Virus record (IMG/VR): IMGVR_UViG_3300027868_000031
Location: 1 to 24,103 of that record
Reading direction: 5' to 3' (one strand)
DNA: 24,103 nucleotides
Source of the DNA: a virus
Under the pieces are notes generated by a model. That model did no database searches, was not told the DNA's origin, and was given only the letters and a program-made list of their open reading frames with translations. Of this stretch, positions 13,978 to 23,092 are shown in pieces; the first letter of the stretch is position 1; each line of letters opens with the position of its first letter. The position numbers and the translations under genes were made by a program.

Positions 13978-16900
13978 ATGGCGGATATTCAAAAGAATTT
14001 TGTTGCCGGTAAGATGAACAAAAGTGTCGATGAGAGACTTGTTCCTAACGGTCAGTATGTAGATGCATTAAATGTAAGACTAGGTTCTACTGAAGCTTCT
14101 GAAATTGGTTCTGTAGAGAATGCATTAGGAAACACTTCTTTAACTATGTTAAACTTTAATAGTATAAGTTTAAGTGATGATGCAACTTGTATTGGTAGTA
14201 TTCATGATAGTCAGAAAGATACTATATATTGGTTTGTACACGATAGTTCATTTACTGCTTCAGCTACAGGTAAGATAGATATGATACTATCATATAATAC
14301 TAATTCAGATGTGTTAGCATATCATGTAATTAGTTCTGATGATGGAGGAGGTCAGAATACTACATTAAATTTTGACCCTAAATATCTTATTACAGGTGTA
14401 AATAAAATTGATGATTTGTTATTTTTTACAGACAACTTTAATCCTCCAAGGGTTATTAATGTAATGAATAACTATGAGAACCCTGCTAACTATATAGACA
14501 GGTTTTCTTCTGAAGATATTTTAGTTATTAAAAAACCTCCATTTACAGCACCTACATTAGTTATGACTAATGTAAATAATAATTCTGATTTTATAACTGA
14601 AAGATTTATTTGTTTTGCTTATAGATATTTATATGAAAATGGAGAATATAGTGCAACCTCCCCTTGGAGTGAAATTGCATTTAATCCTAAATCTTACAAG
14701 CCTTCAATAAAAAGCGGTGTAAATGATGGTATGGTTAATCAGTATAATGCTGTAGACGTAACATTTGACACGGGAGGAAATTTAGTTATAGGTGTTGACC
14801 TTTTGTTTAAAGAGTCTGAAAGCAATGTTATTAAGGTTATTGAAAAGATAAATAAATCAAACTTAGGTTATTCAGACAACACAAAATATTCTTTTACTTT
14901 TAGTAACAGTAAAATATTTACAGTATTACCTGAGTCAGAATTATTAAGACTGTATGATAATGTTCCTCATAAAGCTAAAGCCCAAACATTAATGGGTAAT
15001 AGATTAATTTATGGAAACTATATAGATGGGTATGATTTAAAAGATGAAGATGGACAGCCAATTGATTTAAGATATAACTTATCTTTAAATTCTGTAGATG
15101 CAACTGATGCACCTTTAACAGTAAATACTACCCAAACTTCTTATACTGTTGGAAACTTTAGTACAGTAATTCAAGATTCTTCTTTGAGTTTTGAAATACC
15201 ATTAGATATATTTCCTACAGAAATAGGAGCAGAGCTTTCTTTTGAATATGTTTTAGAGCATGATTCTTTTCATGCGGTTAGTGGAGCAACTGCTCCTACC
15301 GAAACATCAGAAGATGTTATAGTGTCTCTTATATTTCCTATTAATAAAATATACAATAATATAAATGAACTAATTACATCTGATGAATTTACAAATATAA
15401 TTGGTGTAACAGGAGGTAATATATTAAGTGTTACAAATTCTTGTAATGGATTTACTTTTACAGATACAGTAAATTGTTCTATTCCTGCAACACTTGGAGG
15501 TTATGAAAAACAAAGGAGTGGAATAACACAACTAGACCAAGCTATTGCTATTAGTTTGTCAGGGAATACTGTTACTCTTTCTAACATTGCTATGGAGTTT
15601 AAAAATAGCTCAGGGGATATTGTTTTTGAATATTATAAAATAATAGGCATTCCAACTGTTACTTATAATTCAGTTGGTAATCCTAAAAGCTTACATAGTG
15701 ATAGAAGCTATGAAGTTTCAATGATATATGTTGATGATTATAATAGAGCTACAACAGCATTGGTTAGCAATACAAATACTATTAGTACACCTCCTTCATC
15801 TTCTATTACTCAAAATAAAATACAGGTTAATATACCAACTTCTCAAACACCTCCTTATTGGGCTAAGGGTTATAAGTTTGCAATTAAGTCTGATGGTGGT
15901 TCTTATAAAACTATATTTAGCAATATTGCTTATTTAGACCCTATAACAAACGACACTTACTTTTTACTTGAAGGAGAAAACTCAGCTAAAGTAGAAGAGG
16001 GTGATGTTCTTATTGTAAAGACAGATGTTAATGGAGCAAGAACAAATAAAACATTAACTACTGTTTTAGAAAAAAAATCACAAGAAGCTGATTTTATTGA
16101 GCCTATAAATCCTGCGGGTGGAGATGCTCTTGAGGTTCCTTCAGGTGTTTATATAAAACTTAATGCTACAAATTTTTCAACTGCAAATATTGCTAATGCA
16201 GTAATATCCCCCGGAGAAATAGAAAATACAAGAAATTCAAGAAATAGACCTTGGATAACTTACCCAATGAACGAGCAAGATGAAAATGCAGAGTGGGTAG
16301 ATTATACTGTTCCTGAGAACAGTAGAATAAGTTTTTATTTTAAAGGATATAGAAGGGGTTATAAGAATAGATGTTCTTCTGATTGTGAAAGAGCAATATA
16401 TACAATTGATTTAGATTTAGTTTCTAGTAGAACATATAGTAATATGTATGATTTTTTTATTGGAGAAAATGTAGCTGAATTATTAAATCAAGGAGAAGGT
16501 GAGTGTGATACAAATTACACTACGGAACTTCTTGGTGCAAATAATCCTAACCCTAAATCAGTTACTGCATTTATACCACCAACTCCACAAACAACAGATT
16601 ATGCTTTTGAGTTTCAAAGAGATAGTGTTACAAATGAAATGGTATTATCAATTCAAAGTAAATACAAAGGTTGTGGTAATTGGAGTTCAAGCTCAAGTGT
16701 TTCTGCTCAACTTACAGTTTATAGAGCTGACTCCACTTTTATTTTTGAAACTGAACCTAGTGAAACTGCTCCTGATATTTTCTTTGAGTCTCCTACTACA
16801 TATCCTATTGTAAATGGATTTCATCAAGGAAACGTAGCTAATCAATCACCATCTCAAGCAGGTATTGTATTGACTGATTTCTTTAACTGTTTTAGTTTTG

Positions 16901-19635
16901 GAAATGGTTCAGAAAGTTACAAAATAAAAGATTCTATAAAGGGAAAAGCTTTTGGTTTTGGAGAAAGAGTAACTGCTGTTGCTTCACAAGATTATAAGGA
17001 AGCAAAAAGAAAAGCTGATTTAACCTATAGTGGTGTATATAATAATGAGAACAATGTAAACAAGCTAAATGAATTTAACTTAGGATTAGTAAATTACAAA
17101 CCTTTAGAAGAATCATTTGGTTCAATTCAAAAATTATATTCTAGAAGCACAGATATACTTACTTTTCAGGAAGATAAAATATCTTATGTACTTGCAGGTA
17201 AAAATTTATTATCTGATGCCGCAGCAGGTGGAGCTATTACATCTATACCTGAAGTATTAGGTACTCAGATAGCAAGATTAGAAGATTATGGAATAAGTGA
17301 AAACCCTGAAAGCTTTGCTCAATTTGGTTTTAATAAATATTTTACTGACCAAAAACGTGGAGCTGTATTACAGTTAAAAGGAGGTTCATATAACAATGAA
17401 CAGCTATCTGTTATATCTACATCAGGGATGAGAAGTTATTTTAGAGATTTATTTACCTCTAATGTAAATACTCAAAAATTAGGAGGGTACGACCCTTACC
17501 ACGATGAATATATATTAACAGTTACAGATACAAGTTTACCTGTTGATTCTCAATGTGTAAACTGTGGTATTACAGTAGGTTATGATTTCTCTATAGATTC
17601 TAATGAAAAATCATTTTGTGTAGAACTAGGTTCTAATGTAGGAACTTCTACAATTGATTATGTAGTTTTAGGAGGTTCTTACAATATTACTGTAAATTTT
17701 GATGGACAAACAACTTCTTCAGGACCTGTTACTAATAATGGTTCATTTACTTTTAATAAAACAAATGCCTTAAAATCAACAGCTACTGTAACTGTTACAG
17801 GTCAAGCTTCTGTAGGTGAAACACTTCAACTTACAACAAACTGTGTTTCTGCTGAACCTTTAACTATTATTCAATTAGCTTTAACAGCTAATTATGATGC
17901 TGAACAAAGCATTCATTATGGATATGACTATTCTTTAAATGGATACAATTCTCCAAGACAACAATTTAGAGTTGAAATGGTAGAAGGTACTACTCCTATT
18001 GTAAGTGAGTACTTTGCTACATCAGGTGATAAAGGTCAGTCAAATATGCCTACAAATGGAAGTACTGTTACTATGTATGTAACAAAACAAGATGGTGATA
18101 CATTTGATTGGGAAGAAGCAAATGATGAACTTAGGTTTTATACAAGTAATACTTTATATACCAATAATGCTGTAGATATAAATACATTAGTATCTGCTTC
18201 AAATGAAGCCACGTACTTAGTTTCTAAACAGATAGAAGTTAGTATTGCACCAAATTATGGAGAAGCAGGAGACCGAGATAATTGCTGCGGTGAAGGATTT
18301 AATCAAAATTTCTTTATTCCTTACAATGAAAGTTTTATAAACGCAAATACATTTTATGTTGATGCAGCTTTAACAATTCCAATGGCAGTTGCATCAGGGT
18401 TATCTTTACATAGCCCTAGCTTTCCTACTATAATTAGAAGAAGTGGTGGCAATGGTACTGTTATTTCGGGTTATACTGCTTGTCCTAATTGCGAAGGAAC
18501 AGGAAATCAAGATATACCTTTAGAGATTTTTGTTCCCACTGTGTATGCGGCTACATTTACAATGCCAAATACATCGGATGCATATTTATATTTATTGTAT
18601 AGAACAAATCTTTCTACTAGTAAGTTATTATGTTATGACTCTAGTGATAGTTATGATGTTTGTTGTGATTGTATTAGTAGTGTATGGAGGTCTGTTGAGT
18701 TAAAGACATCAACTAATGAAGATAACGCTTGTTGTGGAGCTGTTAATACAGATGTTTATTATTTTGCTTATGCAGAAACAGATTGGACTACAGCTACTAT
18801 TCTTTATACAGATGTAAATTTATCTACACCTGCTCCTAATGCTTTTTATGTAGAGGGAGATGGAACAGGTACTCAACCTGTTAGAGAAATATCAGATGGA
18901 AATGGTACTTTAGGAACATTATCTAATTGTGCTTCATGTACATCTTTATTGGAAGTAGGGTATGATGCAAATAGTTCGGATGGAGTTTGTTGTGAAATAC
19001 CTAGTACTACTAATGTTTATGTAGCTCAAGGAGAAACATTTCAAACAGCAACAAATATATATAGTGAAGATACTTTGAATGTACCTGCAGCGGATGGTTT
19101 TTATGTACCTTCAAGAGTGTTAACATCAGTATCTCTAGATACTAATACTAATGAAACTTCTTTGTGTTGTTTCTCAGGAGGACCGGGAACTACTTATTAT
19201 ATGTCTAGTCAGAACTTTGACCAAGTTGTAACTTTTAATACAGCTCACTCAATATGGTTAGATGAAGAAGGAACAGTAGCAGCACCTGCAGGGTACTACA
19301 TAGAAGATGTAGCAGGAACTGACACTAGGCAAATACTTAATAATAACTCAGGGTTATTAGAGAATATTGTAGCTTGTGCATCCTGTACAAGAAGTGTGTT
19401 TAGTTCATCTATGAACCTTGGAAGTTCTGTAGCTTGTACTACATCTCCTGAGTTTTACTATACTTGGAAGAATGTTGGTAATACAGCAAGTACACCTGAA
19501 TTGGGAGATGTGGTTTATTACCTTCAAACAGGTGGTAACTATCTTAGTGCAGGAAACTATTATATGAGTGCAGGAAGTAGAATTTATACGATTAATAATA
19601 ATGGAGGAGTAGTTCAAATACAAAATTGTGTTTAA
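13978..19635 (+). CDS. Giant tail nozzle/stabilisation protein with C-terminal cysteine-module array
   Basis: An 1885-aa protein, over twice T7 gp12 (about 790 aa). The start NFVAGKMNKSVDERLVPNGQ and then YVDALNVRLGSTEASEIGSV is the signature of nozzle or stabilisation proteins in Bacteroidetes podoviruses. The first 1180 residues read as a beta-propeller and beta-domain structure ending near GGYDPYHDEYILTV (about 1168-1181). In relatives I remember, a final domain follows soon after. Here, a Cys-rich, Thr/Ser/Gly-rich region of about 700 residues follows, with CC pairs near 1434, 1559, 1584, 1667 and 1729 and CxxC pairs near 1191, 1500, 1655 and 1800, in units containing Y.A..E.F.TAT.IYTD and a GFY turn. 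The expected C-terminal domain seems to lie in the separate gene at 21883. The N-terminal role is likely; the array role is unknown. Confidence 0.8.
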   Translation: MADIQKNFVAGKMNKSVDERLVPNGQYVDALNVRLGSTEASEIGSVENALGNTSLTMLNFNSISLSDDATCIGSIHDSQKDTIYWFVHDSSFTASATGKIDMILSYNTNSDVLAYHVISSDDGGGQNTTLNFDPKYLITGVNKIDDLLFFTDNFNPPRVINVMNNYENPANYIDRFSSEDILVIKKPPFTAPTLVMTNVNNNSDFITERFICFAYRYLYENGEYSATSPWSEIAFNPKSYKPSIKSGVNDGMVNQYNAVDVTFDTGGNLVIGVDLLFKESESNVIKVIEKINKSNLGYSDNTKYSFTFSNSKIFTVLPESELLRLYDNVPHKAKAQTLMGNRLIYGNYIDGYDLKDEDGQPIDLRYNLSLNSVDATDAPLTVNTTQTSYTVGNFSTVIQDSSLSFEIPLDIFPTEIGAELSFEYVLEHDSFHAVSGATAPTETSEDVIVSLIFPINKIYNNINELITSDEFTNIIGVTGGNILSVTNSCNGFTFTDTVNCSIPATLGGYEKQRSGITQLDQAIAISLSGNTVTLSNIAMEFKNSSGDIVFEYYKIIGIPTVTYNSVGNPKSLHSDRSYEVSMIYVDDYNRATTALVSNTNTISTPPSSSITQNKIQVNIPTSQTPPYWAKGYKFAIKSDGGSYKTIFSNIAYLDPITNDTYFLLEGENSAKVEEGDVLIVKTDVNGARTNKTLTTVLEKKSQEADFIEPINPAGGDALEVPSGVYIKLNATNFSTANIANAVISPGEIENTRNSRNRPWITYPMNEQDENAEWVDYTVPENSRISFYFKGYRRGYKNRCSSDCERAIYTIDLDLVSSRTYSNMYDFFIGENVAELLNQGEGECDTNYTTELLGANNPNPKSVTAFIPPTPQTTDYAFEFQRDSVTNEMVLSIQSKYKGCGNWSSSSSVSAQLTVYRADSTFIFETEPSETAPDIFFESPTTYPIVNGFHQGNVANQSPSQAGIVLTDFFNCFSFGNGSESYKIKDSIKGKAFGFGERVTAVASQDYKEAKRKADLTYSGVYNNENNVNKLNEFNLGLVNYKPLEESFGSIQKLYSRSTDILTFQEDKISYVLAGKNLLSDAAAGGAITSIPEVLGTQIARLEDYGISENPESFAQFGFNKYFTDQKRGAVLQLKGGSYNNEQLSVISTSGMRSYFRDLFTSNVNTQKLGGYDPYHDEYILTVTDTSLPVDSQCVNCGITVGYDFSIDSNEKSFCVELGSNVGTSTIDYVVLGGSYNITVNFDGQTTSSGPVTNNGSFTFNKTNALKSTATVTVTGQASVGETLQLTTNCVSAEPLTIIQLALTANYDAEQSIHYGYDYSLNGYNSPRQQFRVEMVEGTTPIVSEYFATSGDKGQSNMPTNGSTVTMYVTKQDGDTFDWEEANDELRFYTSNTLYTNNAVDINTLVSASNEATYLVSKQIEVSIAPNYGEAGDRDNCCGEGFNQNFFIPYNESFINANTFYVDAALTIPMAVASGLSLHSPSFPTIIRRSGGNGTVISGYTACPNCEGTGNQDIPLEIFVPTVYAATFTMPNTSDAYLYLLYRTNLSTSKLLCYDSSDSYDVCCDCISSVWRSVELKTSTNEDNACCGAVNTDVYYFAYAETDWTTATILYTDVNLSTPAPNAFYVEGDGTGTQPVREISDGNGTLGTLSNCASCTSLLEVGYDANSSDGVCCEIPSTTNVYVAQGETFQTATNIYSEDTLNVPAADGFYVPSRVLTSVSLDTNTNETSLCCFSGGPGTTYYMSSQNFDQVVTFNTAHSIWLDEEGTVAAPAGYYIEDVAGTDTRQILNNNSGLLENIVACASCTRSVFSSSMNLGSSVACTTSPEFYYTWKNVGNTASTPELGDVVYYLQTGGNYLSAGNYYMSAGSRIYTINNNGGVVQIQNCV

Positions 19636-19650
19636 TAAAATTAATATAAA

Positions 19651-20685
19651 ATGGCAGCAGTAGAAGGTGAATATTTTTTAGATGGTAGTACATTATCTAA
19701 TTCAACAGCAATTTATAGTAATATAGATTTAACTATAAAAGCTCTTGATGGATACTACGCAGCAGATGGAATTGTAAGGTTTCAATCAGGAGGTGTGTTG
19801 GTTTCAACATCAGATTGTGTTGATTGTACAGGTAATATTATTGAAATAACAGGATGTGATACAAATACATATTATGCTGAATCTACATATCCTGTTTCTG
19901 TTGGAGATGAAATAAGATTTATATCCAATGCAGTTTTGAATACAGTAGAGTGTGGTGTTGTTGCTAATGTAAACTCATCAGGAACTTCATCATCTACCAT
20001 TTATGGTACTCAAGGATATGCTTGTGATTTGTTTACAGGTCAACCAACAATGCTAGGAACTTATCCTACATTAGGAAGTATGTATGGGATAGATTATGGT
20101 AGTAATCAATGTACAAAAACAGACTACCTAGGAAATATAGTTAATGTATCTATCAATTCAAATATAGATTCAAATAATAACGGTTGGAAAACTATTTCTT
20201 ATGGTGTATGTGAATTTGGGGCAGGTAACGGTATAAGTTTAGGATGGGGATTTGAATTAACAGCAGAGCCAATTAGTGCAGACCATCAAAAAATTTATAC
20301 TTTAAATGTGTACTTTACACCTGTAGGAAGTATTGAACAAGTATCTCCTATTTTTAGTACTACATCATCCGGAACAGGAAACAACATAACAACTATAACA
20401 AGAAGACGTTCAAATGGATTGCTTAACTTTTCAGAAGGAAACTTTAGAATAGAAATTCAAAGCACAGAGAATGTAACATTTGATGCAGGTAATATTACTC
20501 TTGATGGAGAGATTAGTTGGGTTGATACTAATATTGTTGCAAGAGACACTACCTTAGGTACTTTTATTTGTTCAGGTAGCCCTACAGCTTGTGCTCCTTC
20601 AGCTACAGCTTGTGATTTTTATTCACAGCAATTAAATTCTCAACAGATAGTTACCTCTAATCACTACTGTGGAATAGTAATATAA
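19651..20685 (+). CDS. Cysteine-module tail protein with a large unknown beta domain
   Basis: A 344-aa protein in the same frame as the giant nozzle ORF, after three in-frame TAA codons. The first 60 residues are one module (GEYFLDGSTLSNSTAIYSN, then the LDGYY turn, SGGVLVSTSDCVDC) without the CC pair. Residues about 65-320 are unlike the modules: a Cys-containing, Gly/Ser/Asn-rich beta domain with YGTQGYACDLFTGQPT, GVCEFGAGNGISLGWGFEL and TTITRRRSNGLLNF. The C-terminus has further Cys (CSGSPTACAPSATACDF). No signal peptide or membrane segment is seen. It is probably a tail or fibre component with its own binding domain, derived from the array next door. The function is unknown. Confidence 0.65.
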   Translation: MAAVEGEYFLDGSTLSNSTAIYSNIDLTIKALDGYYAADGIVRFQSGGVLVSTSDCVDCTGNIIEITGCDTNTYYAESTYPVSVGDEIRFISNAVLNTVECGVVANVNSSGTSSSTIYGTQGYACDLFTGQPTMLGTYPTLGSMYGIDYGSNQCTKTDYLGNIVNVSINSNIDSNNNGWKTISYGVCEFGAGNGISLGWGFELTAEPISADHQKIYTLNVYFTPVGSIEQVSPIFSTTSSGTGNNITTITRRRSNGLLNFSEGNFRIEIQSTENVTFDAGNITLDGEISWVDTNIVARDTTLGTFICSGSPTACAPSATACDFYSQQLNSQQIVTSNHYCGIVI

Positions 20686-20714
20686 TAAAACCAATTCATA
20701 AATAATATATTAAC

Positions 20715-20722
20715 TATCTTTG
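20715..20722 (+). promoter_or_regulatory. Bacteroidetes -7 promoter box TATCTTTG inside the tail cluster
   Basis: TATCTTTG followed by TAAAAAGA lies 22 bases before the ATG at 20745, in the only sizeable spacer (59 bases) of the module region. It would let the following cysteine-module genes be made independently of the nozzle gene. Confidence 0.68.
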
Positions 20723-20744
20723 TAAAAAGAATTAAAAAAAAAAT

Positions 20745-21530
20745 ATGAGTAATTTTAGACAGCAATCAGGTGGAGCTCTAGGAAGTTTAACTACGTGTTC
20801 AGTTTGCTATGATTCATTAACTGTACTTTACACAGGTCAAGGAGGAGAGACGACAGCTTGTTGTGCAGCAACAGGTGGAAATTACCCTGTTGTTACAACA
20901 GTGTACGTAGCTCAAGGAAGGACTTTTATGACTGCACCTATGTTTTATATTGAGACTGACTTGCAACTAGCAGCTCAAAATGGTTTTTATACTGAGAATG
21001 TAGCTCCCGGTTCTAGAACTGTTAGGGAATTAACAGGTCAAGGACAAAATCCTTCATTATCATTTGCTTCAAGTTGTGATACTTGTAGTACATCTGTTAG
21101 TAATATAAAAGAAAGTAGTGCAACTGTTGGTTTAAATACTTCGTATGATGCTTGTTGTGGAAATGACTTTCCAAGTAATTACCTACTCCCTTATGGTACG
21201 ACATTTTTAACTGCAGATAAAATTTATGCAGCAAATGATACAAATTTATCAACTCCTTTAACAGGGTTTTTCTATTCAATAAATGATGGAAAGGTTAAAG
21301 AGTTTAATGGAGCTTCACCTGCAGGAACTGCAGCAAATTGTGCAACTTGTTTTGATACATTAACAGGAATACAATATTCTAGTTCTTCTGCAAATGATGT
21401 TTGTTGTGACCCTTTACCAACAGGAACATATTATGTTGCTCAAGGAGAAACATTTGCAACTACTAATACGTTATATACTAATGAAGAGTTAACAGTAATA
21501 GCTCCAAATGGATTTTATAGTAATGATTAA
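20745..21530 (+). CDS. Cysteine-module protein (three to four units)
   Basis: A 261-aa protein made wholly of cysteine modules. It begins mid-unit (NFRQQSGGALGSLTTCSVC, Cys18 and Cys21), then CC near 39, 136 and 220 and CxxC near 114 and 206, with strands such as TVYVAQGRTFM and TYYVAQGETFATTNTLYTNE. It ends mid-unit at the turn NGFYSND and TAA. An in-frame ORF starting at 21540 continues the unit with correct spacing, so the TAA at 21528 interrupts a module. There is a promoter box 22 bases upstream. It is probably an extracellular, tail-attached protein. The CC and CxxC groups could form disulfides after release or bind metal. No enzyme motif is visible. Confidence 0.68.
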   Translation: MSNFRQQSGGALGSLTTCSVCYDSLTVLYTGQGGETTACCAATGGNYPVVTTVYVAQGRTFMTAPMFYIETDLQLAAQNGFYTENVAPGSRTVRELTGQGQNPSLSFASSCDTCSTSVSNIKESSATVGLNTSYDACCGNDFPSNYLLPYGTTFLTADKIYAANDTNLSTPLTGFFYSINDGKVKEFNGASPAGTAANCATCFDTLTGIQYSSSSANDVCCDPLPTGTYYVAQGETFATTNTLYTNEELTVIAPNGFYSND

Positions 21531-21539
21531 TATAAATAT

Positions 21540-21869
21540 ATGAGTACTTATAGAGTTTTATCGAATGGACAAATGACCTCTTCATTTCAATGCCCTCTTT
21601 GTCCTCAAAGATTAACTGTTTTATACAATGCTAATTCATTGCTTACAGCTTGTTGTGCAGCAAGTAACCCTCCTTATAGTATATTTGTTTGGATTGTTAC
21701 AGGAGAAAACTTTTCTACAGCGGCACAATTTTATACTGATGATACTTTATCTCAAACAGTAAGTAATGGTTGGTATACAACAACAGGTCCGGTAGGAACA
21801 GGAAGAACTTATAGAGTAAAAACATCTAGTTCTCTTGGTAATGCAACATCATGTTCTGCTTGTCCTTAA
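21540..21869 (+). CDS. Cysteine-module protein, second half of a module pair
   Basis: A 109-aa protein in the same frame as the previous ORF, nine bases after its stop. It starts at the same module phase as the gene at 20745: Met1, Arg5, Ser8, Gly10, Cys18, Cys21 and LTVLY at 25-29 line up without gaps. Then come TACCAAS (CC at 38-39), FVWIVTGENFSTAAQFYTDD, NGWYTTTG and a final CSACP. The equal phase shows the ATG is probably real and that ORF borders follow a module border. It could be expressed by termination-reinitiation, by readthrough of the TAA, or be a fission product of a longer gene. The role is as for its neighbour; no other domain is seen. Confidence 0.62.
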   Translation: MSTYRVLSNGQMTSSFQCPLCPQRLTVLYNANSLLTACCAASNPPYSIFVWIVTGENFSTAAQFYTDDTLSQTVSNGWYTTTGPVGTGRTYRVKTSSSLGNATSCSACP

Positions 21870-21882
21870 ATAAAAATAATAT

Positions 21883-22662
21883 ATGTCAAACGTAACAATA
21901 TCATATAGCGAATCAGTTCAAGGATTTCCATCCTTTTATAGCTTTGTACCTCAATTTATGATTGGGTGTAATAATTACTTCTATACTTTTGACAAGGGTA
22001 ATTTGTATAAACACAGTACAAATTCAAATAGAAATAATTTTTATGGAACATCTTACCCTTCAGTAATTAAAACAGTATTTAATTCAGAACCATTAGTTTC
22101 TAAATTGTTTAAAACAATTACACTACATTCAAATGATTCTTGGGATGTAGAGATGACAAGTGATATTGAAAATTATGGAAGAATAAATGCTAATTATTTT
22201 GAAGAAAAAGAAGGAGCTTTATTTTCATACATAAGAACTGAATCATCAAACGGAGCAAGAGTTCTTGAAAATCTTAAGTCAAGAGCAGTAAACGGAATAG
22301 GTAATGCATTAGAAATATTTATTGGTTCAGCATCATACCCTATGGGTACAAATATATATAATGTAAATATTGGAGATAGTTTTTTGTGGCAAGACTCCGG
22401 TGGAGAAGTTTATTATTGGGGAAAAGTTTCTGATAAAGTTATTGACCCTAGTACCAATCCTTCAGTTTTTGTTCAAATTGACTCTGAAAGTATTGCTCCT
22501 CTTCTTGGAGCAACCTCTGTATTTACAATTAGCGTAAAGAATAGTGAAGCAGAGTCACATGGTATATTAGGTCATTATGGGGAAATAACATTAACCAATA
22601 CAAAATCAACTGCTGTTGAATTATTTGCTGTAGTTTCTAATGTAATGAAAAGCTTTCCATAA
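21883..22662 (+). CDS. Separated C-terminal domain of the nozzle/stabilisation protein
   Basis: A 259-aa, Cys-poor protein after the module genes. The N-terminal part, ISYSESVQGFPSFYSFVPQ, then CNNYFYTFDKGNLYKH, NFYGTSYPS and LVSKLFKTITLHSND, follows a pattern I know from the end of large tail proteins in Bacteroidetes podoviruses (S..VKGW.SF.S, N.YYT...G.LY.H, FKTI.Y.G). There it is normally fused to the N-terminal nozzle part, which here ends near residue 1181 of the gene at 13978. The rest is beta-rich, with GDSFLWQDSGGEVYYWGKV and VFTISVKNSEAESHG. It probably assembles with the nozzle at the tail tip. That it is a split-off domain is inferred from memory of homologues. Confidence 0.68.
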   Translation: MSNVTISYSESVQGFPSFYSFVPQFMIGCNNYFYTFDKGNLYKHSTNSNRNNFYGTSYPSVIKTVFNSEPLVSKLFKTITLHSNDSWDVEMTSDIENYGRINANYFEEKEGALFSYIRTESSNGARVLENLKSRAVNGIGNALEIFIGSASYPMGTNIYNVNIGDSFLWQDSGGEVYYWGKVSDKVIDPSTNPSVFVQIDSESIAPLLGATSVFTISVKNSEAESHGILGHYGEITLTNTKSTAVELFAVVSNVMKSFP

Positions 22663-22684: not shown

Positions 22685-23092
22685 ATGATATTTAATTTAA
22701 GACCAATTATAGAATCAGATTATGAAGACATCCTTTCAGGATGGTGGAAGAGTTGGGGATTTTCTGCTCCTCCAAAAGATTTTTTACCTGACAATGGTAC
22801 AGGTGGTATAATGGTTTTAGATGGAGACACCCCTGTTTGTGCAGGGTTTTTGTATACCACTAATTCAAAAGTTGTTTGGGTTGATTGGATAGTATCTAAT
22901 AGAGAGTATAGAAAAAAACCTCATAGAAAAAATGGTTTGAATTTACTGATACAAACTTTAACTAATACAGCTAAAGATAAAAAATATAAATATGTATACG
23001 CTAACAACAACAACACTTATTTAATAGATACATTTTTATCCAATGGATATTTAAAAGGAAGTAAAAGCACAGAGTTAATAAAAAATATATAA
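22685..23092 (+). CDS. GNAT-fold acetyltransferase-like protein
   Basis: A 135-aa protein with a GNAT layout: N-terminal strand FNLRPIIESDYEDIL, then GWWKSWGF and PPKDFLPDNGTGGIMVLDGD, central strands CAGFLYTTNSKVVWVDWIVS, the loop NREYRKKPHRKNGLNLLIQT in the place of the acetyl-CoA-binding (R/Q)xxGxG/A region, and a last strand KYVYANNNNTYLIDTFLSNG typical of the fold's end. The classic Q/RxxGxA is only loosely kept, so activity is uncertain. Similar small GNAT proteins occur beside tail genes in Bacteroidetes phages. The substrate is unknown; a virion or host protein is possible. It starts just after a promoter box and touches the next gene (TAATG). Confidence 0.68.
   Translation: MIFNLRPIIESDYEDILSGWWKSWGFSAPPKDFLPDNGTGGIMVLDGDTPVCAGFLYTTNSKVVWVDWIVSNREYRKKPHRKNGLNLLIQTLTNTAKDKKYKYVYANNNNTYLIDTFLSNGYLKGSKSTELIKNI

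Follow-up and report, generated by a model that had tools for sequence, protein, structure and literature searches.

Among the closest described relatives of the system reported here is the crassvirus tail muzzle, crAss001 gp44 (PF25729), a single chain of 1371 amino acids (aa). It forms a hexamer at the tail end, an assembly known for this protein only, and is similar to the T7 nozzle in its propeller and ring-joining domain; the IG2 and crass domains lie within residues 318-1021, the distal part is described as probably contacting the cell, and the length varies through insertions (PMC10172136). The muzzle of Elemovirus and Callevirus (phi38:1) is also a single chain, without insertion, and Baltivirus phi19:3 (Pachyviridae) has its muzzle split into two adjacent genes, gp120 and gp121. 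Podoviridae sp. ctfjg026 (MW202828, Manatee Spring) combines a split muzzle with one middle gene starting with a cysteine (Cys) module, which is absent from the Elemovirus, Callevirus and Baltivirus loci. Here we describe the virus record IMGVR_UViG_3300027868_000031, whose positions 1 to 24,103 form the stretch analysed (hereafter the window). Its muzzle is divided at the same place as that of Baltivirus, but other genes stand between the two halves. Unlike in MW202828, where the single middle gene ends in another C-terminal domain, these genes include an array of Cys modules, one of them divided between two open reading frames (ORFs). We propose, with moderate confidence, that the locus is a split tail-muzzle cassette, in which a two-chain muzzle carries tail-tip subunits with a docking Cys module and exchangeable host-facing domains.

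The window holds a terminase-to-tail block (portal phrog_6547), whose 3' end is made up of five consecutive plus-strand ORFs, named here by their first position (Table 1). ORF 13978 matches phrog_14478 (E 6e-227) and the muzzle gene of the Manatee Spring phage (44% identity, 1459 aa), and the fused Elemovirus muzzle (L004, 1470 aa) aligns with it in blocks of 36-44% identity as far as window aa 1182, at about nucleotide (nt) 17525. At the other end, ORF 21883 matches the Pfam family crAss_MUZ_C (PF25729; E 1.8e-15, 57.6 bits against a cut-off of 27), residues 1200-1283 of gp44 (PDB 7qok; E 3.1e-11) and the last 235 aa of the fused Elemovirus muzzle (36% over 256 aa). By homology, ORFs 13978 and 21883 are the N- and C-terminal parts (MUZ-N and MUZ-C) of a crassvirus-type tail muzzle ("nozzle") and, since fused homologues exist, are halves of one ancestral type. 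The Elemovirus and Callevirus muzzle is the same protein end to end, in the same gene neighbourhood. In gp44, both family profiles match the one chain, at residues 23-159 and 1201-1284. The C-terminal domain is homologous and the N-terminal part weakly but significantly similar, the independent E-value of 1.2e-5 at Z=100000, in a search of four proteins, giving modest support to N-terminal homology; the smaller N core profile found no match among PDB-wide chains. The conserved N core and C domain lie 4359 nt apart in the window versus 15 aa in Elemovirus, on separate ORFs that are kept in the related contigs. The initial annotation had placed the end of the N-terminal part near 17520, a C-terminal domain in its own ORF at 21883 and over 4 kb between the two, all of which agrees with these matches. 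Its "nozzle-type" domain is present but is more exactly the crassvirus muzzle C-terminal domain, and its cassette "over four ORFs" is right if the tail of the N ORF is counted with three whole ORFs. Of named phages, the nearest belong to unclassified Caudoviricetes, to Elemovirus and to Pachyviridae, and Crassvirales includes none of them as filed.

Loci with MUZ-C were gathered among the relatives with two profiles and sorted by script. With near-duplicates included in the counts, 5 fused loci were classified versus about 150 split ones, the latter with no middle ORF in 36 cases, one in 81, two in 17 and three or more in 15. Both ends were expected to form one protein in homologues, and they do so in Elemovirus, phi38:1 (1324 aa), locus L097 (1354 aa), FpV4 (1961 aa, found outside the script's reach) and gp44. 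The join measures 4-15 aa in the fused forms measured by script, whereas in loci with a true split the extra domains at this point amount to at least about 90 aa; insertion and fission therefore go together. The domains that follow the core in the window have no counterpart in Elemovirus and are common to split relatives. Maribacter phage Panino (L091, 6630-7720), one of the 36 loci with no middle ORF, was dropped as a split locus, its N core apparently containing a frameshift (sequencing error or real lesion). Most of the aquatic relatives sampled thus have a split muzzle, and fission does not set the window apart. This majority state, together with Baltivirus, where the genes are split in the absence of any module or middle gene, gives no support to the earlier view of a gene split by the Cys-module cassette in particular. 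Modular growth followed by gene fission had also been suggested: growth and fission are associated, and growth may have come first. A quick tree of fused and split forms, with long branches and an unsure root, requires four changes, which may be repeated fissions or re-fusions.

The commonest arrangement among these relatives is a single middle gene, between 59 and about 570 aa long. It opens with the Cys module of ~60 aa, with a consensus of roughly YYLDxxTLSxATxVYxDAxLTTxAxDGFYSDGxIVREQxxGxLLPxxxCPxC, and the length and domain content of the gene beyond the module vary between loci; in L026, L035 and L057, the gene is the module alone (59 aa). A search with a single module as query found 80 loci in viruses plus a single bacterial or archaeal genome hit, in a metagenome-assembled genome (MAG), and the module ORF adjoins MUZ-N and/or MUZ-C in 81/81. 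The MAG locus (L168, CP070801.1), on a partly masked contig whose title names Aenigmatarchaeota, has the middle gene beside MUZ-C and other genes further out; it is probably phage sequence mis-joined into an archaeal MAG.

Exchange of the middle gene was examined in a swap test on 76 distinct loci, whose pairs, not independent of each other, were binned by MUZ-N identity. In the 20 pairs with MUZ-N identity of at least 95%, mean identity was 99.0% for the upstream gene, 97.3% for the N tail, 96.8% for the module, 98.5% for MUZ-C and 98.5% for the downstream gene, but 81.1% for the rest of the middle gene. The corresponding values in the 56 pairs at 85-95% were 91.4, 81.7, 88.3, 91.9 and 75.4%, with 57.7% for the rest of the middle gene. 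Part of the identity loss in this variable part is gain or loss of whole domains. Individual pairs go further: the variable part is 59% identical between L045 and L049 versus 99.5% for MUZ-N and 99% for MUZ-C, and 36% between L020 and L021 versus 95% in each muzzle half. Modular phage receptor-binding proteins, such as the tailspikes of Klebsiella podophages, have a conserved N-terminal anchor. The relatives' middle gene shares with them a constant anchor and an exchanged distal part, and differs in position, its anchor being a Cys module of ~60 aa that goes with a split muzzle. In one relative (L060:7621-8991), the middle gene contains 10% Cys and consists of numerous C-x4-C...GDGSGTYATLAACxxAC repeats, so that here, too, the variable part has expanded as an array.

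In the window, a hidden Markov model (HMM) of the module locates copies in ORFs 19651, 20745 and 21540 as well as in the final third of ORF 13978, and further degenerate copies flank those of the N ORF tail on both sides. ORF 19651 shows 40% identity to the Manatee Spring middle gene across the module and, on this similarity, corresponds to the one middle gene of the relatives. Hardly anything but module array is found in ORFs 20745 and 21540, and ORF 21540 is a paralogue of the start of ORF 20745 (~39% identity to its N-part). The modules of ORF 20745 cover, in order, HMM positions 39-61, 6-63, 11-59 and 5-37, and those of ORF 21540 positions 40-61 and 10-58. One module is therefore cut between the ORFs, its first half ending ORF 20745 and its second half opening ORF 21540, and ORF 20745 itself also starts with a second half. 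Peculiar to the window are its expansion to three middle ORFs and the module divided between ORFs 20745 and 21540. Searches of Pfam, PHROGs and PDB folds assigned neither the Cys module nor the variable parts scanned to a family, and a search of BFVD returned unnamed viral proteins only. In an AlphaFold2 (AF2) model of ORF 20745 (29 rows; predicted local distance difference test, pLDDT, 73; predicted template modelling score, pTM, 0.51), strands stand at 3-8 and 256-259. Both of its half modules are predicted with confidence (block pLDDT 87-89 for the N-terminal one, 84-93 close to the C-terminus), above the poor middle module. Modelled alone (26 rows, pLDDT 59), ORF 21540 has its N-terminal half module unordered (42-51) and its whole module at 65-82. 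Since the ends of ORF 20745 are confident and the lone half of ORF 21540 is unordered, the models fit, without showing, a need of each half module for another half, the strand pairing being read from predicted secondary structure.

Table 1. Features of the muzzle region of the window (positions in the 24,103-base stretch).
Feature	Position	Strand	Remarks
Muzzle N-part ORF (MUZ-N)	13978..19635	+	1885 aa; conserved core aa 1-1184 = 13978-17529
Extra domains after core, within N ORF	17530..18780	+	Inserted relative to fused homologues
Cys modules, N ORF tail	18784..19395	+	HMM matches 18784-18945, 19006-19110, 19228-19395 (aa 1603-1656, 1677-1711, 1751-1806)
Middle ORF 1	19651..20685	+	Module 19657-19836 (HMM E 3.8e-25), then variable domain of unknown fold
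Promoter-like TATCTTTGTA	20715..20724	+	Flavobacterial TAnnTTTG type; kept in L009, L010
Middle ORF 2	20745..21530	+	Half module (second) 20748-20816; module 20901-21101; degenerate 21195-21353; half module (first) 21423-21524
Middle ORF 3	21540..21869	+	Half module (second) 21546-21611, then module 21699-21863
Muzzle C-part ORF (MUZ-C)	21883..22662	+	259 aa; PF25729, gp44 and Elemovirus matches
Conserved flanking gene, 3' edge of cassette	22685..23092	+	phrog_17252 E 1.4e-37; same neighbour in MW202828

Judged by their sequence evolution, the three middle ORFs are real genes under purifying selection. Two related IMG/VR contigs were available for comparison: L009, which ends inside the region before the MUZ-C gene, and L010 (loci L005, L010 and L011 being one contig). 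The ORF boundaries of the window recur in both, including "...GFYSND stop" followed by "MS-x-YR". The ratio of nonsynonymous to synonymous divergence (dN/dS) against the window is 0.25-0.26 for ORF 13978, 0.35-0.44 for 19651, 0.49-0.54 for 20745, 0.36 for 21540 and 0.42 for 21883. Compared with L010, the proteins range in identity from 86% (13978) down to 56% (21540), with 97% in the upstream gene, and the dS values of ORFs 20745 (0.62) and 21540 (1.12), raised in comparison with 0.34-0.44, hint at exchange. All four starts carry A-rich upstream sequence like other genes of the window. At the first junction, between the stop of 13978 and the start of 19651, 56 nt (19615-19670) are identical in the three contigs, more than expected from divergence, the adjoining genes differing by up to 14-23% in protein. 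A TATCTTTGT motif precedes ORF 20745 in all three contigs, despite an extra gene just upstream in L010. Moreover, TA[AT]CTTTGTA occurs four times on the plus strand (8875, 12337, 20715 and 22670), each time shortly 5' of an ORF, and never on the minus strand; these four sites probably split the late genes into transcription units. The extra ORF of L010 (9599-9958), exactly between the counterparts of 19651 and 20745, carries a metalloprotease-like HESIH motif and has no Pfam match.

In the mechanism that we propose, the muzzle would be made as two polypeptides, MUZ-N and MUZ-C, which would have to co-assemble because neither retains the whole ancestral chain. Both the cut and the insertion lie at the short join, which maps to about residue 1198 of gp44, after the crass/IG2 insertion and, by the published domain limits, in the propeller-containing remainder (PMC10172136); the site thus differs from that of the IG2 and crass insertions of gp44 itself. 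The genes between the halves would encode tail-tip subunits, in which the ~60-aa Cys module docks on the muzzle and the exchangeable outward domains after it probably contact the host surface. In the lineage of the window, the module would have multiplied into an array over four ORFs, with one copy divided between ORFs 20745 and 21540. Because the half modules complement each other, the products of these two ORFs may be joined, or that of ORF 20745 may be closed on itself. We regard as doubtful, and put forward only tentatively, the fuller picture in which separate tail-tip polypeptides, linked by such completion or with ORF 20745 self-closed, form a stalk or ring on the two-chain muzzle, with variable subunits freely exchangeable between phages.

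Several observations weigh against the split-cassette proposal or parts of it. The "structural protein" labels found in relatives are record annotation. Exchange was seen in the relatives' middle gene, and the swappable subunits that the initial annotation foresaw hold there; for the window's own three ORFs they are a possibility, hinted at by the raised dS of 20745 and 21540. First and second half modules do not pair off simply, N halves and C halves standing at 2:1, which makes the pairing ambiguous. The AF2 models are mediocre (pLDDT 73 and 59) and unequal in overall quality. Finally, a PDB fold search with the module-array model returned no similar solved fold, leaving docking and host contact without fold-based support.

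The middle ORFs might instead be ordinary late-gene passengers (moron-like) in a permissive gap, whose products need not be in the virion. Unrelated genes do occupy the gap, such as the HExxH-like ORF of L010 or modification enzymes in L007, L046 and L069, and ORF 20745 has its own promoter-like site. We nevertheless consider this explanation unlikely, given that the module stands beside muzzle genes in every locus found with it, occurs also inside the muzzle N ORF and shows much the same degree of conservation as MUZ-N and MUZ-C. It is also conceivable, though we give it a still smaller chance, that the products sit at the tail tip and that the variable part has a role other than receptor binding, for instance in degrading the cell surface enzymatically, in shielding the virion or in controlling superinfection. 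This would suit the scans of variable parts, none of which matched a Pfam or PHROG family, and the annotation "putative glycosidase" of the middle gene in the Manatee Spring phage; however, location at tail-end protein genes together with exchange between near-identical phages is typical of host-recognition parts. A single long muzzle chain produced by stop-codon readthrough or frameshifting appears very improbable. Two of the four window junctions are in frame (19635/19651 and 21530/21540) and a stop/start falls precisely where one module is divided, but the first junction has three in-frame stops, the other two junctions are out of frame in the window, and 21530/21540 is out of frame in L010. 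Moreover, L010 has a whole extra gene in the second junction, and the starts share the A-rich upstream sequence of other genes. Such artefacts as the apparent split of Panino, which looks like a frameshift, do occur; even so, decay of the muzzle gene or an error of sequencing or assembly can practically be dismissed here, being refuted by boundaries that recur in independent contigs, with all ORFs under purifying selection.

The split cassette, as proposed, would represent a recurrent route for phages to open a tail-end protein, in which the short muzzle join is cut and the gap takes up exchangeable genes as the halves stay constant. It is a candidate for host recognition in flavobacterial podoviruses, and it is testable: the dedicated module can serve as a marker of such cassettes, and our comparison yields a set of listed phage pairs, nearly identical to each other, whose main difference is the middle gene. 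The muzzle, split muzzle genes (in GenBank) and modular receptor-binding proteins are already known, and the Cys module, the middle gene and the divided module are apparently undescribed. In the open-access literature we found no description of these three or of a split muzzle, in line with the earlier statement that no such system was described, except that the split Baltivirus genes were already in GenBank.

Some other genes of the window and of related loci deserve mention. The counterpart of the flanking gene at 22685..23092 is annotated as an N-acetyltransferase subunit in the Manatee Spring relative. Upstream of the terminase, an ORF at 859-2001 matches DUF285 (BspA-like repeats; E 6e-43) and, weakly, a PKD domain, and may encode a surface adhesin; the stretch at 2227-2870 (~640 nt) holds no listed ORF of at least 60 aa and no Rfam match at gathering score. 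In one clade of relatives, the gap between the muzzle halves encodes prolyl-hydroxylase-like 2-oxoglutarate (2OG) oxygenases (Pfam E 7e-12 to 8e-15; L046:4582-8536, L007:4424-9543, L033:4664-7355, L052:4953-7925 and L069:4287-8223). Depending on the locus, the gaps of this clade also hold an O-fucosyltransferase, a carbamoyltransferase, a GDP-mannose dehydratase or a hydroxyproline O-arabinosyltransferase family protein (PF23452, E 5.5e-8), and the flanking muzzle pieces have long PTP/PAP tracts. A 2OG oxygenase is present in 12 of 18 Pro-rich loci versus 0 of 103 others (121 distinct loci; because these are related, they do not count as independent evidence of association). In that clade, glycosylation of tail-tip hydroxyproline by phage-encoded enzymes is a candidate activity.

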